NCBI GenBank assembly: GCA_022566355.1
Contig: JADFJB010000177.1
Span: 1 to 6,447, forward strand
Source: a candidate division KSB1 bacterium
Lineage (GTDB): Bacteria > Zhuqueibacterota > JdFR-76 > DREG01
Reading direction: 5' to 3'
DNA length: 6,447 nucleotides
The position numbers and the translations under genes were made by a program. The notes under the pieces were generated by a model that saw nothing but the letters and a program-made list of their open reading frames with translations, ran no database searches and had not been told where the DNA came from. Shown here one piece after another: positions 2,788 to 6,447 of the stretch (within the stretch, counting starts at the first letter, position 1; each line of letters starts with the position of its first letter).

Positions 2788-4734
2788 CTAACCATTTGTC
2801 GAACCTTGCACCTTTCCAACAAATCTCAGGAAAACATACATAGCAATAATCCCAATAGGTATTAAGATGAGCGGACTAATACCGAAACCGGCCGGCAGAT
2901 AGCCAAACAATATTCCCGCGAATGCCGCCATTAATGCGTATGGAATTTGTGTTCTTACATGGTCGATATGATCTGCGCCAGAGGCCATCGATGACATAAT
3001 GGTCGTATCCGAAATGGGTGAAGAATGATCGCCAAAGACAGAACCGGAAAGGACAGCGGCTACGGTTGCAACCAGGATTGTCGAACCTAGTTCTGCGGAA
3101 AGGCCGGCATCTATGGACATTTGATGAGATAAAGGCACGACAAGCGGGGTGAGTATTGCCATTGTAGCCCAGGATGTTCCCGTTGCAAATGCAATAACCG
3201 CAGCTATAATGAAGGTTAAAACCGGCAAAAAGTGGGGAGTGAACAATCCCTTGGTTGCCTGCACAATATATCCGGCTGTGTTTAAATCCTTACAGATGGC
3301 GCCAATCGACCAGGCGAGTATTAAAATTACGATTGCCAATAACATTGCCTTCATTCCTGTGAGCCATGCTTCTATTGTTTCTGTCATAGTCAATATTTTT
3401 TGACTCATGGCCATGGCACCGGCAACAAAAACGCTCACGGCGGTGCCCCACATTAATGCGGCAAATGGGTCTGCCGCACCGATTATTTGAATGATACTCG
3501 ATGAACCGGCTTCGTTTGCCAGGGATAGATAACCACTATAATAGAGCCCGGCAAAAGAAACCACAATCATAACTAAAATCGGAACGATTGCATTATACCA
3601 GCGCAATGGTATACCGTCTTTATCTTTTTCAATTTCCATCTCCTGGGTATTAGAAAGCGGAACTGCTCCATCCCGCAAAACCGCACCGGTTTCGGTAACC
3701 CTTGTTTCGGCGGTTAGCATACTGCCAAAGTCTCTGCCGGTGTAGCCAATCAGGAAAACGGCAGCCATGGTAAAAATGCTGTAAAACGAATAGCCAATGC
3801 TGCGGAAAAAAATGAAATATCCGTCCCCATCCATTCCATTTGCTCTTAATGCATCGTCGATTAAACCGCTTTGGAATCCCACCCAGGTGGAAATAATTGC
3901 GATACTTGCGATAGGCGCTGCGGTTGAATCGACAATGTAAGACAGCTTTTCTCGTGAAATCCTTAACTTATCGGTAAGAGGGCGCATGGTATTGCCAACC
4001 ACGAGGGTATTGGCATAATCATCGAAAAAGATGAAAATACCCATTGCCCAGGTTGCAACCTGGCCGCTTCTCCTGGTTTTTGCATATTTTGATAATGACT
4101 GTACGATACCAGCCATCCCGCCGCACTTTGACATAATTCCCACCATGCCGCCGAGCAATAAACTAAAAACAATAACCGGAGTGTGAGACGGATCGGCGAT
4201 GGCGCCGATTACATATTGATCCAACGAACGCAAAAAGCCGATAATGGGCTGATAACCATTGAGAAAGATCGCCCCGAGCAAAATTCCAAAGAATAAAGAT
4301 AACACTACTTGCCGTAAAATCAGCGCCAGAAAAATCGCCAGAATTGGAGGAAAAATACTCAGGATGCCAGGGAGGACATAGAATCCTTGGTCATTTTGTA
4401 ATTCATTAAATCGGAATTGAAAATTTTGATTGCCAAGCTGTGAAATAACCACATTTTCAATAATATATTTGCCATTTACAAAAGGACCGATTCGATCCAA
4501 TTTTGTGATAGTGCCATTATTTTTTTGCCAGATGCCTTCACTATTGAGTGTGTCTGAAAAATCGCTGATCACATTGCCGAATTGATCCATTGCAGATATT
4601 GTAACCGTAAACGGAATATTTGCCAATACGACGGATGGAGAATCGATTATCAAATGATCAATCTTCTCAGTGGCATGAACAAGGTTGAATGGTAAAAAGA
4701 AACAAGAAATCAGAAGGGTTTTTTTTCGTAGCAT
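2788..4734 (-). CDS. NhaC-family Na+/H+ antiporter with N-terminal Ig-like extracytoplasmic domain
   Basis: The 648-residue protein has a membrane core from about residue 123 that is typical of the NhaC family (PF03553-type), which exchanges Na+ for H+ across the inner membrane for pH and sodium homeostasis. Signature stretches are PPILAIFLALILRQVVLS at 129-146, FFDDYANTLVVGNTMRP at 236-252, ATGTSWATMAILTP at 517-530 and GDHSSPISDTT at 568-578, with acidic and Ser/His residues expected in the ion path. Residues 1-21 form a signal peptide (MLRKK, then a hydrophobic run, ending VHA), and 22-121 look like an Ig-like beta domain (PFTVTISAMDQFGNVI, then GKYIIENVVIS). Ordinary NhaC proteins have about 450-510 residues, so this N-terminal 120 is an addition. 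There is no clear Shine-Dalgarno sequence; the start is supported by the signal peptide and by the matching start in the duplicated copy at 6303. Some relatives exchange organic acids, so the substrate is inferred. Confidence 0.9.
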   Translation of the reverse strand: MLRKKTLLISCFFLPFNLVHATEKIDHLIIDSPSVVLANIPFTVTISAMDQFGNVISDFSDTLNSEGIWQKNNGTITKLDRIGPFVNGKYIIENVVISQLGNQNFQFRFNELQNDQGFYVLPGILSIFPPILAIFLALILRQVVLSLFFGILLGAIFLNGYQPIIGFLRSLDQYVIGAIADPSHTPVIVFSLLLGGMVGIMSKCGGMAGIVQSLSKYAKTRRSGQVATWAMGIFIFFDDYANTLVVGNTMRPLTDKLRISREKLSYIVDSTAAPIASIAIISTWVGFQSGLIDDALRANGMDGDGYFIFFRSIGYSFYSIFTMAAVFLIGYTGRDFGSMLTAETRVTETGAVLRDGAVPLSNTQEMEIEKDKDGIPLRWYNAIVPILVMIVVSFAGLYYSGYLSLANEAGSSSIIQIIGAADPFAALMWGTAVSVFVAGAMAMSQKILTMTETIEAWLTGMKAMLLAIVILILAWSIGAICKDLNTAGYIVQATKGLFTPHFLPVLTFIIAAVIAFATGTSWATMAILTPLVVPLSHQMSIDAGLSAELGSTILVATVAAVLSGSVFGDHSSPISDTTIMSSMASGADHIDHVRTQIPYALMAAFAGILFGYLPAGFGISPLILIPIGIIAMYVFLRFVGKVQGSTNG

Positions 4735-4876
4735 TGGCTGTCCGAATTAGTGATTAATCCCAATTGAGTTGATTTTACAGCTTGAAGTATGAAGTATAGA
4801 AAAATTATTTAATAAACACAAGGGTAAAATAAAAGATAAAACCCTACAGCCAAGAAGAGGATATATTAATCATTCA
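4600..4876 (-). repeat. Copy 1 of a diverged direct repeat: antiporter 5' end plus promoter region
   Basis: This segment covers the first 45 or so codons of the antiporter, its leader and about 140 nt upstream. It matches 6172-6447 in the same orientation with scattered substitutions and a few small indels. The offset between copies is 1569 nt at the start codon and 1571 nt at the far end. Confidence 0.9.
4793..4821 (-). promoter_or_regulatory. Candidate sigma-70-like promoter of the antiporter gene
   Basis: On the minus strand TTGTGT (4816-4821) and TATACT (4793-4798) are separated by 17 bases, which would give a leader of roughly 50 nt before the ATG at 4734. The same arrangement with a better -10 (TATAAT) is kept in the duplicated copy at 6362-6390. 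The leader contains a GATTAATC palindrome at 4751-4758, also kept in the copy. The -35 is weak, so this is a prediction from sequence only. Confidence 0.45.
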
Positions 4877-4940
4877 GCTCATATACTTAAAGTTGAGGCT
4901 CAAAGAATTTGCTTTTTATTGATATTACATTTGAGTTCAT

Positions 4941-5034
4941 TCTAAAAAGGTGGGATACCGATTCCATCGTTCTCATAAGTATTTGTTTTTATGTATTAAT
5001 TTTTTTTAGAAAAGCGATGGCATCGGTTTTTAGA
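4941..5034. repeat. 94-bp imperfect inverted repeat (MITE-like)
   Basis: The ends are TCTAAAAA (4941-4948) and TTTTTAGA (5027-5034). Inside them ACCGATTCCATCG (4957-4969) pairs with CGATGGCATCGGT (5015-5027) with one mismatch. The middle is an AT-rich stretch of 45 nt. Nested inverted ends around a short non-coding centre resemble a miniature inverted-repeat element. The loop is too long for a normal intrinsic terminator. No clear target-site duplication is visible. Confidence 0.5.
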
Positions 5035-5093
5035 GTAGACTCACATTTATAATCTTCTATTAGATTCGTGTTTGACAGAAAACACATTAGCTG

Positions 5094-5147
5094 TCATTCC
5101 CGAATGCTTACCCGCTAAAAACATGCGGGCACAAGTTTATCGGGAAT
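5094..5147. repeat. GTCATTCCCG-type intergenic hairpin repeat
   Basis: ATTCCCGA (5096-5103) pairs perfectly with TCGGGAAT (5140-5147), and inside them CCCGC (5111-5115) pairs with GCGGG (5125-5129). The GTCATTCCCG start and GGGAAT end resemble small dispersed repeats known from many bacterial genomes, such as the ATTCCC-N8-GGGAAT repeats of Neisseria. Membership in a genome-wide family cannot be shown from one copy. Confidence 0.6.
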
Positions 5148-5196
5148 CTTCCAGATTGAAACGATAAGATTTCAGTCAAAAAAATAAGGAGGGGGA

Positions 5197-5229
5197 AAAC
5201 CTCTCAGGTTTTGAAAACCTGAGAGGTTT
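5197..5229. repeat. Perfect 33-nt palindrome (16-bp arms)
   Basis: AAACCTCTCAGGTTTT (5197-5212) and AAAACCTGAGAGGTTT (5214-5229) are exact inverted copies around a single G. Each arm itself holds an internal near-palindrome (AACCTCTCAGGTT). Such CCTCTCAGG/CCTGAGAGG elements occur as dispersed intergenic repeats in related phyla, as I recall. RNA from either strand would fold into a long hairpin, so a bidirectional terminator role is possible, but no T-run follows and no gene ends close by. Confidence 0.75.
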
Positions 5230-5459
5230 AATTAAGAGGGGTAATTGAGACAAACAAAATACTACAGTTCTATAGTTCCGTATTAAAAATACGTCACCGA
5301 ATTTATGCAACAGACCACTAAGCGAACTAACGCTAAAATGGTTGAAAATAACCGGCAATTTGTGGATACATCATACGTTCTGTATTAACTTACTGCCCCA
5401 ATAGTAATTAACTTGGATAATTCATGAATTATAGTTTTAAGCTTGAAGTTTCCAAAGTT

Positions 5460-5543
5460 GTCATTCTGGAAGAATCTATTTCCATAAAATTGAAAAAGCA
5501 TATTGTAAGTATAAAATAGTTGCAAAATAGATCCCTCCTGGAC
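5460..5543. repeat. GTCATTCTGGA-type inverted-repeat element
   Basis: GGAAGAATCTATTT (5468-5481) is the inverted partner of AAATAGATCCCTCC (5525-5538), 12 of 14 positions matching. The outer ends GTC and GAC extend the symmetry to an 84-bp element. Its right end overlaps a second hairpin, in which CCTGGAC (5537-5543) pairs with GTCCAGG (5567-5573) and ACCTT (5545-5549) with AAGGT (5553-5557). It contains no reading frame. It looks like a non-autonomous dispersed repeat. Confidence 0.5.
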
Positions 5544-5579
5544 GACCTTGAAAAGGTTCATGAATAGTCCAGGTTAATT

Positions 5580-5598
5580 AAACGTAATTATTACGTTT
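5580..5598. repeat. Perfect 19-nt palindrome over the stop codon of the 83-residue gene
   Basis: AAACGTAAT and ATTACGTTT are exact inverted copies around one T. The minus-strand stop codon at 5591-5593 lies inside. The stem is AT-rich with no loop bases to spare and no T-run after it on the minus strand, so it is a doubtful terminator; a protein-binding site or chance are alternatives. Confidence 0.5.
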
Positions 5599-5842
5599 CA
5601 GTACTTTTTTCCATAAAATGGCGTTCTAAATGTGTCGTTTGTGCAACTTCAAAAAAGCTGGTGGGATAAAGATAATCCTCGCCTTCGTCATCAATAATTC
5701 TGTAATCTGATCCTTCGATTTCAAGTACTTCGTATACTTTACCAATAGTCAGACTACCCGCCAACCCATTCTTAACTTCAATCCAATCTTTATTATCTTC
5801 AAGTTGGGCAATGCCCGAGTTACAAATACATTTTATTTTCAT
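5591..5842 (-). CDS. Small conserved-looking protein of unknown function (83 residues)
   Basis: I do not recognise a named family. The protein starts MKIKCICNSG with two Cys at 5 and 7. It has a core at 29-66 with alternating beta-like pattern (SLTIGKVYEVLEIE, then YRIIDDEGEDYLYP, then FFEV) that suggests a small SH3-like barrel. Similar LTIGKVYEV / IIDDEGE / YLYP small proteins occur as hypotheticals in many bacteria and phages, from memory. It is acidic overall, has no signal peptide or membrane segment and is probably cytoplasmic. The start ATG is 9 nt after the stop of the broken small gene at 5852, so the two are probably co-transcribed. A Shine-Dalgarno sequence is weak or absent. The coding pattern and the close spacing make it a likely real gene; a toxin-antitoxin or immunity role is possible but not shown. 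Confidence 0.7.
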   Translation of the reverse strand: MKIKCICNSGIAQLEDNKDWIEVKNGLAGSLTIGKVYEVLEIEGSDYRIIDDEGEDYLYPTSFFEVAQTTHLERHFMEKSTET

Positions 5843-5851
5843 GATAAATTT

Positions 5852-6089
5852 TTACTCTAGCCAACGTTTCCTTTTAACTTCGACTTTACCCACTCCTTTA
5901 GCTTCAAACCAATGAATTTCAGCTTTACGCGGTAAACCATCATATGGAGCTCTGATTAAAGCAATACCTTTTTTCCTTTTTCCATTCCTTGCCGCCATAT
6001 CTATTTCTTAAATAGTGCAATATCCGAATTGACTTGCTTCTTGCAATAGTTTCAATATCGGTAATGGGCGATAGAAATTCTATTTTCAT
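5852..6089 (-). pseudogene. Conserved small protein (78 residues when repaired) broken by a +1 frameshift in a poly-A tract
   Basis: Two overlapping frames together make one recognisable small protein. The first, from the ATG at 6089, reads MKIEFLSPITDIETIA, then YGGKEWKKEK. The second ends the protein with GIALIRAPYDG, then KAEIHWFEAKGVGKVEVK and the stop at 5852. From memory, a widespread family of hypothetical proteins has this order in one chain: DIE-IA, a SIR-like helix, YG-G-WRK-KGIA, and HWYEA-GIGK-E-K. Removing one base from the six-A run (plus-strand T at 5969-5974) joins the halves at WKKEKGIALIRA and restores that pattern over 78 residues. As it stands, the first frame runs on into unrelated sequence until 5940, and the second could only be made alone as a 48-residue protein from an ATG at 5998. 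The function is unknown. The gap to the 83-residue gene is 9 nt, suggesting an operon. The extra base may be real, a phase-variable tract, or a sequencing error. Confidence 0.75.
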
Positions 6090-6171
6090 TTTGAAATCTA
6101 ACAAAAGAATCAAGAAAAGCAATATTTGAATTTATGAAAAGAAACCTAAGAGGAGTCAGGAATCTTATGAC

Positions 6172-6303
6172 TGTAACTGTAAACGGAATATTTGTCAGTA
6201 GCACAATGAGCATTCACGTAACCAGGTTTAGTTTCTCAGTAGCATGAACAATGTTGAATGGTAAAAAGATGCAAAAAATCAGAATGATTGTTTTTCGTAG
6301 CAT
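6172..6303 (-). pseudogene. Truncated copy of the antiporter 5' end (signal peptide plus start of Ig-like domain)
   Basis: From the ATG at 6303 the frame reads MLRKTIILIFCIFLPFNIVH, then ATEKLNLVT, and stops at TGA (6214-6216), codon 30. The antiporter at 4734 starts MLRKKTLLISCFFLPFNLVH, so the signal peptide is conserved with mostly conservative changes. Beyond the stop the resemblance continues (NIPFTVT), with one codon missing, and is lost at about 6172; nothing of the membrane core is present. It is best read as the relic of a duplicated gene. A surviving 29-residue signal-peptide-like product is possible but unsupported. Confidence 0.85.
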
Positions 6304-6361
6304 TGGCTGTCCAAATTAGTGATTAATCTCAATTGAGTTGAATTTACAGCTTGAAGTATGA

Positions 6362-6390
6362 ATTATAGAGAAAATTATTACCAAACACAT
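6362..6390 (-). promoter_or_regulatory. Candidate promoter in the duplicated copy
   Basis: Read on the minus strand, ATGTGT (6385-6390) and a consensus TATAAT (6362-6367) are separated by 17 bases, exactly aligned with the predicted antiporter promoter. Transcription from it would run through the truncated signal-peptide relic towards the small genes at 6089 and 5842. The -35 is poor; the -10 is ideal. Confidence 0.4.
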
Positions 6391-6447
6391 GAGTAAAATA
6401 AATGCGATAAAACCCATATGCAAAAAGGAGGATATTTTAATCATTCA

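Follow-up and report, generated by a model that had tools for sequence, protein, structure and literature searches.

Probable relic of a locally duplicated antiporter 5' end, 1.57 kb from the intact gene, in a candidate division KSB1 bacterium

The window analyzed here is a whole contig of 6,447 nt (GenBank JADFJB010000177.1, assembly GCA_022566355.1) from a candidate division KSB1 bacterium, and the assembly to which it belongs comprises 213 contigs and 4.62 Mb. An antiporter gene with a PilZ gene downstream of it occupies the middle of the window, and a second, damaged copy of the antiporter 5' end lies at the right edge, beyond a region that carries three dispersed repeats and two small open reading frames (ORFs) (Table 1). 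At the other edge, in a protein that carries a sorting tail for type IX secretion, a bacterial Ig-like domain is repeated in tandem and in frame at 1-588 (294-nt unit, 87% identity); the contig begins inside this repeat, and the repeats seen are therefore a minimum. Between two genes, at 1678-1788, a 37-nt unit also stands three times in tandem (100% and 92% identity).

Table 1. Features of the antiporter locus and of the second copy of its 5' end
Feature	Position	Strand	Basis
Intact antiporter gene, 648 codons, NhaC-like Na+/H+, with signal peptide and N-terminal extension of about 120 residues	2788..4734	-	Pfam, orthologues
Reference copy of the 5' block, with promoter, leader and codons 1-45 of the intact gene	4600..4876	-	Alignment
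Promoter-like TTGTGT-17-TATACT belonging to the intact gene and starting 87 nt ahead of its ATG	4793..4821	-	G001 comparison
Dispersed repeat A, >30 copies of 112 nt that end in inverted repeats (TGAGT..TCTAAAA / TTTTTAGA..ACTCA)	4932..5043	.	Genome matches
Dispersed repeat B, at least 12 copies, about 90% identity	5232..5327	.	Genome matches
Dispersed repeat C, MITE-like, >20 copies of about 180 nt at 76-94% identity, with inverted ends of 24 nt	5400..5582	.	Genome matches
Small ORF 2, 83 aa, in the frame of ORF 1 after a single TAA	5591..5842	-	Weak relatives across phylum
Small ORF 1 (48 aa), lying downstream from the relic promoter	5852..5998	-	Open reading frame
Junction where antiporter-gene homology ends	6171..6172	.	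Alignment
Relic, second copy of the 5' block, up to the contig end upstream	6172..6447	-	82% identity
Scrambled stretch of the relic (equivalent of codons 25-38), 39 nt, including a 3-nt gap	6193..6231	-	62% differing columns
What is left of the relic frame, a signal peptide of 29 codons closed by TGA	6214..6303	-	Translation
Promoter-like ATGTGT-17-TATAAT of the relic	6362..6390	-	Sequence comparison

The product of the intact gene belongs to the NhaC-type antiporters of the Pfam family Na_H_antiporter (PF03553), which it matches over residues 281-612 (E of 1.4e-54; 185.9 bits versus a gathering cut-off of 23), and differs from them in its added signal peptide and N-terminal extension. An earlier note had placed an Ig-like domain in the duplicated part. 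This label finds no support here, as Pfam gave no Ig-like match in the N-terminal extension or the first 45 residues; bacterial Ig-like families were matched neither by the antiporter at 1e-3 nor by its first 45 residues at an E of 5. Matches to the antiporter were found in 36 of the 59 genomes searched, its own genome counted. The long form carrying the N-terminal extension, defined as a match that starts from near residue 5-30 with at least 46% identity, is present essentially once in each of these 59 genomes that has it, and in one relative (G033) it is divided between two contigs. Most other matches in relatives were paralogues of 32-45% without the N-terminal part. The antiporter with signal peptide and extension is conserved across much of the phylum and was also seen in Gemmatimonadota records. 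The PilZ gene also stands downstream of the antiporter in the nearest relative examined, G001 (67% identity), and in G004 (61%), and the left copy is thus in its ancestral place on its downstream side. G001 has no second antiporter 5' end within the 378 nt upstream of its antiporter gene, before a large, divergently oriented gene begins.

When the 4.62-Mb genome was searched with the 5' block of the intact gene, 4600-4876 matched 6172-6447 in direct orientation at 82% identity (E of 2.2e-68). The local alignment score of the two blocks was 166, compared to at most 21 in 300 shuffles, and an ungapped core (4664-4833 versus 6233-6402) reached 88% identity. The two copies are spaced 1.57 kb apart, with the starts of matching stretches separated by 1,569 to 1,572 nt, and have in common the promoter, the leader, the start codon and about 45 codons of the antiporter gene. 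These results bear out the earlier claim that the 5' block is present twice in direct orientation. The genome holds only these two copies, the next match being 30 nt long with an E of 0.09, and the earlier description of the second copy as a gene relic, to which many further copies would have been contrary, came through this search intact. On its upstream, promoter side the relic runs into the contig end at 6447, so that the length of at least 276 nt given before is a lower bound on that side only. The gene-body side stops within the contig, directly after GTTACA at codon 45-46, close to the approximately 47 codons after which similarity had been said to be lost; because this end lies inside the contig, the truncation of the relic is not a contig-end effect. 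No continuation on another contig was found in the genome assembly, where 4877-4912 had no match elsewhere and no contig overlapped the end. Nor does the genome contain a close second copy of codons 46-648, for which the next-best match was a 39% paralogue.

What is left of the reading frame in the relic encodes 29 residues (MLRKTIILIFCIFLPFNIVHATEKLNLVT) and ends in TGA, which agrees with the stop at codon 30 read earlier; compared to NhaC-type genes of PF03553, the relic keeps the signal peptide and the start of the extension only. Relative to the intact copy, 19 of 80 alignment columns differ upstream of the -10 box (24%), 4 of 64 from the -10 box to the ATG (6%), 9 of 72 in codons 1-24 (12.5%), 26 of 42 in codons 25-38 (62%) and 1 of 21 in the last 21 nt (5%). 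Once the scrambled stretch at codons 25-38 is removed, heterogeneity of divergence along the block is mild (variance test, P of about 0.02); the difference between the -10-to-ATG segment and the region upstream of it gave a Fisher P of 0.005, for segments that were picked after seeing the data. Part of the scrambled stretch is similar to the 22 nt directly before it (CATTGT..GCTACTGA.AAA; self-similarity P of 0.01 by shuffles) and possibly arose through slipped copying in unconstrained DNA, while candidate sources elsewhere in the window scored no better than shuffles.

The distribution of differences over codon positions was also compared. Codons 1-45 of the relic differ from the intact gene at 12, 8 and 13 sites in codon positions 1, 2 and 3, whereas comparison of the intact gene with its orthologue in G001 gives 190, 93 and 410 (Fisher P of 0.03). 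A strong third-position excess is likewise absent when the intact gene is set against G001 over the first 46 aligned codons only (27, 15 and 33), a stretch that evolves fast. The contrast points toward lost constraint in the relic, and with so small a sample of codons it makes a modest argument for neutrality. Upstream of the coding region 23 of 144 columns differ, versus 10 of 93 in the coding part minus the scrambled stretch. The observation that promoter and leader are kept about as well as the coding part therefore stands, and its description as unexpected does not: a young relic that decays at one rate throughout would show similar divergence in both parts, which leaves no need for a special explanation, even though the stretch from the -10 box to the ATG is somewhat better kept than the sequence upstream of it. 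The conservation upstream would reflect recent common origin and not a separate function.

The promoter-like sequence of the intact gene recurs in G001 with the same hexamers and equal spacing (TTGTGT-17-TATACT), 67 nt before the ATG. Over this stretch 23 of 31 nt are identical between the two, a value reached by 0 of 300 shuffles. The leader downstream of the -10 box cannot be aligned with that of G001, in which the -10 box stands 20 nt closer to the ATG. Directly after the first hexamer, the relic and G001 have TTTGG and the intact copy has TTTAT; judged by this comparison, the relic seems to keep an ancestral promoter detail that the intact copy has lost. The better-kept segment from the -10 box to the ATG, together with the perfect TATAAT and its 17-nt spacer in the relic, could mean either that this promoter is still under selection or that local gene conversion has occurred.

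Between the two copies, in 4877-6171, nothing recognizable as antiporter gene body or PilZ region was found. Repeat A occurs in both orientations in the genome and is MITE-like. A simple tandem duplication of 4600-6171 (1,572 nt) would place a further copy of 5583-6171, the single-copy part of the region, to the right of the relic. The assembly contains no such copy and thus lends this duplication no support, although one may lie beyond the contig end at 6447. ORF 1, on the same strand as the relic, begins 305 nt downstream of the latter's start codon. For ORF 2, weak relatives were seen in 9 further genomes of the phylum, as was a weak match (7e-8) to phrog_34144, a family of phage proteins whose function is unknown, and on contig C145 relatives of ORF 1 and ORF 2 lie inside one 118-aa frame. 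Neither small ORF had a significant match in Pfam, and ORF 2 had no match on plasmids. Since relatives occur elsewhere, both are probably real genes.

Taken together, the above-described results make it very likely that the antiporter locus underwent a local direct duplication, of which 6172-6447 is the decaying relic. The closest competing explanation, to which we give a small share of the probability, is promoter capture from the broken copy: promoter and leader of the relic would have been preserved, or copied, as a functional unit that now drives ORFs 1 and 2. The relic shares strand and order with both of these ORFs, which are themselves probably genuine, its TATAAT and 17-nt spacer are intact, the segment from the -10 box to the ATG is the best-kept long one, and no intrinsic terminator-like site was found in 4500-6447. 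However, the -35 hexamer of the relic is the weaker ATGTGT in place of TTGTGT, promoter-like sites show no clear excess here over shuffles, others lie nearer the ORFs (for example 6104-6077), and the post hoc choice of segments noted above applies to this comparison also.

It is improbable that sequence from another strain was joined near the contig end by the assembler. The fragmentation of the assembly into 213 contigs and the position of the relic at a contig end would suit such an artefact, but the truncation is on the inner side, away from that end, copies at 82% identity are hardly confusable for an assembler, and estimated contamination is 0.21%. Still less credence attaches to the idea that the block is present twice because it regulates the antiporter as a structured RNA or in the manner of a riboswitch: the leader is better kept than its surroundings, yet no Rfam match came near the gathering score, the predicted leader folds are weak and unlike between the copies, and the leader of G001 differs in alignment and -10 position as described above. 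A mobile element or dispersed repeat is the least probable identity of the block, despite the three dispersed repeat families in its neighborhood; with two copies in the genome, this reading of the block was rejected at the sensitivity of the search in this assembly.

For the relic of a local duplication, which we prefer, a sequence of events can be proposed. The duplication would have followed the split of this lineage from G001, because the signal peptides of the intact copy and the relic are 75% identical, whereas that of the intact copy can hardly be aligned with that of G001; gene conversion between the copies would remove this argument. The second copy would then have lost its 3' part, or never had one, and would have drifted since without a coding function. 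We give roughly even chances to a copying of the whole or nearly whole antiporter gene with later truncation, and a somewhat lower probability, of about one in three, to a copying of the 5' segment only. Traces of the rest of a second copy, such as a whole-gene tandem duplication might leave, were found neither in 4877-6171 nor elsewhere in the genome, and complete deletion would look alike. The locus resembles bacterial pseudogenes of tandem duplication: the copies are closely linked and face the same way, the second is truncated, interrupted by a stop codon and altered at every codon position, and relatives have essentially a single copy of the gene. It differs from them in that only the 5' end and promoter remain. 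Partial gene duplicates are a well-described class (Katju 2012, PMC3449122). As in the part of that account considered here, a truncated derived copy lies beside a full-length copy of ancestral type, the full length being confirmed in our case by orthologues; that part describes eukaryotes, and neither a new function nor a completed reading frame is evident at this locus.

The relic thus probably offers a clean local example of a duplicated gene that has shrunk until only promoter and signal peptide are left. Its significance beyond this genome is small, and would be greater only if the retained promoter drives the neighboring small ORFs.
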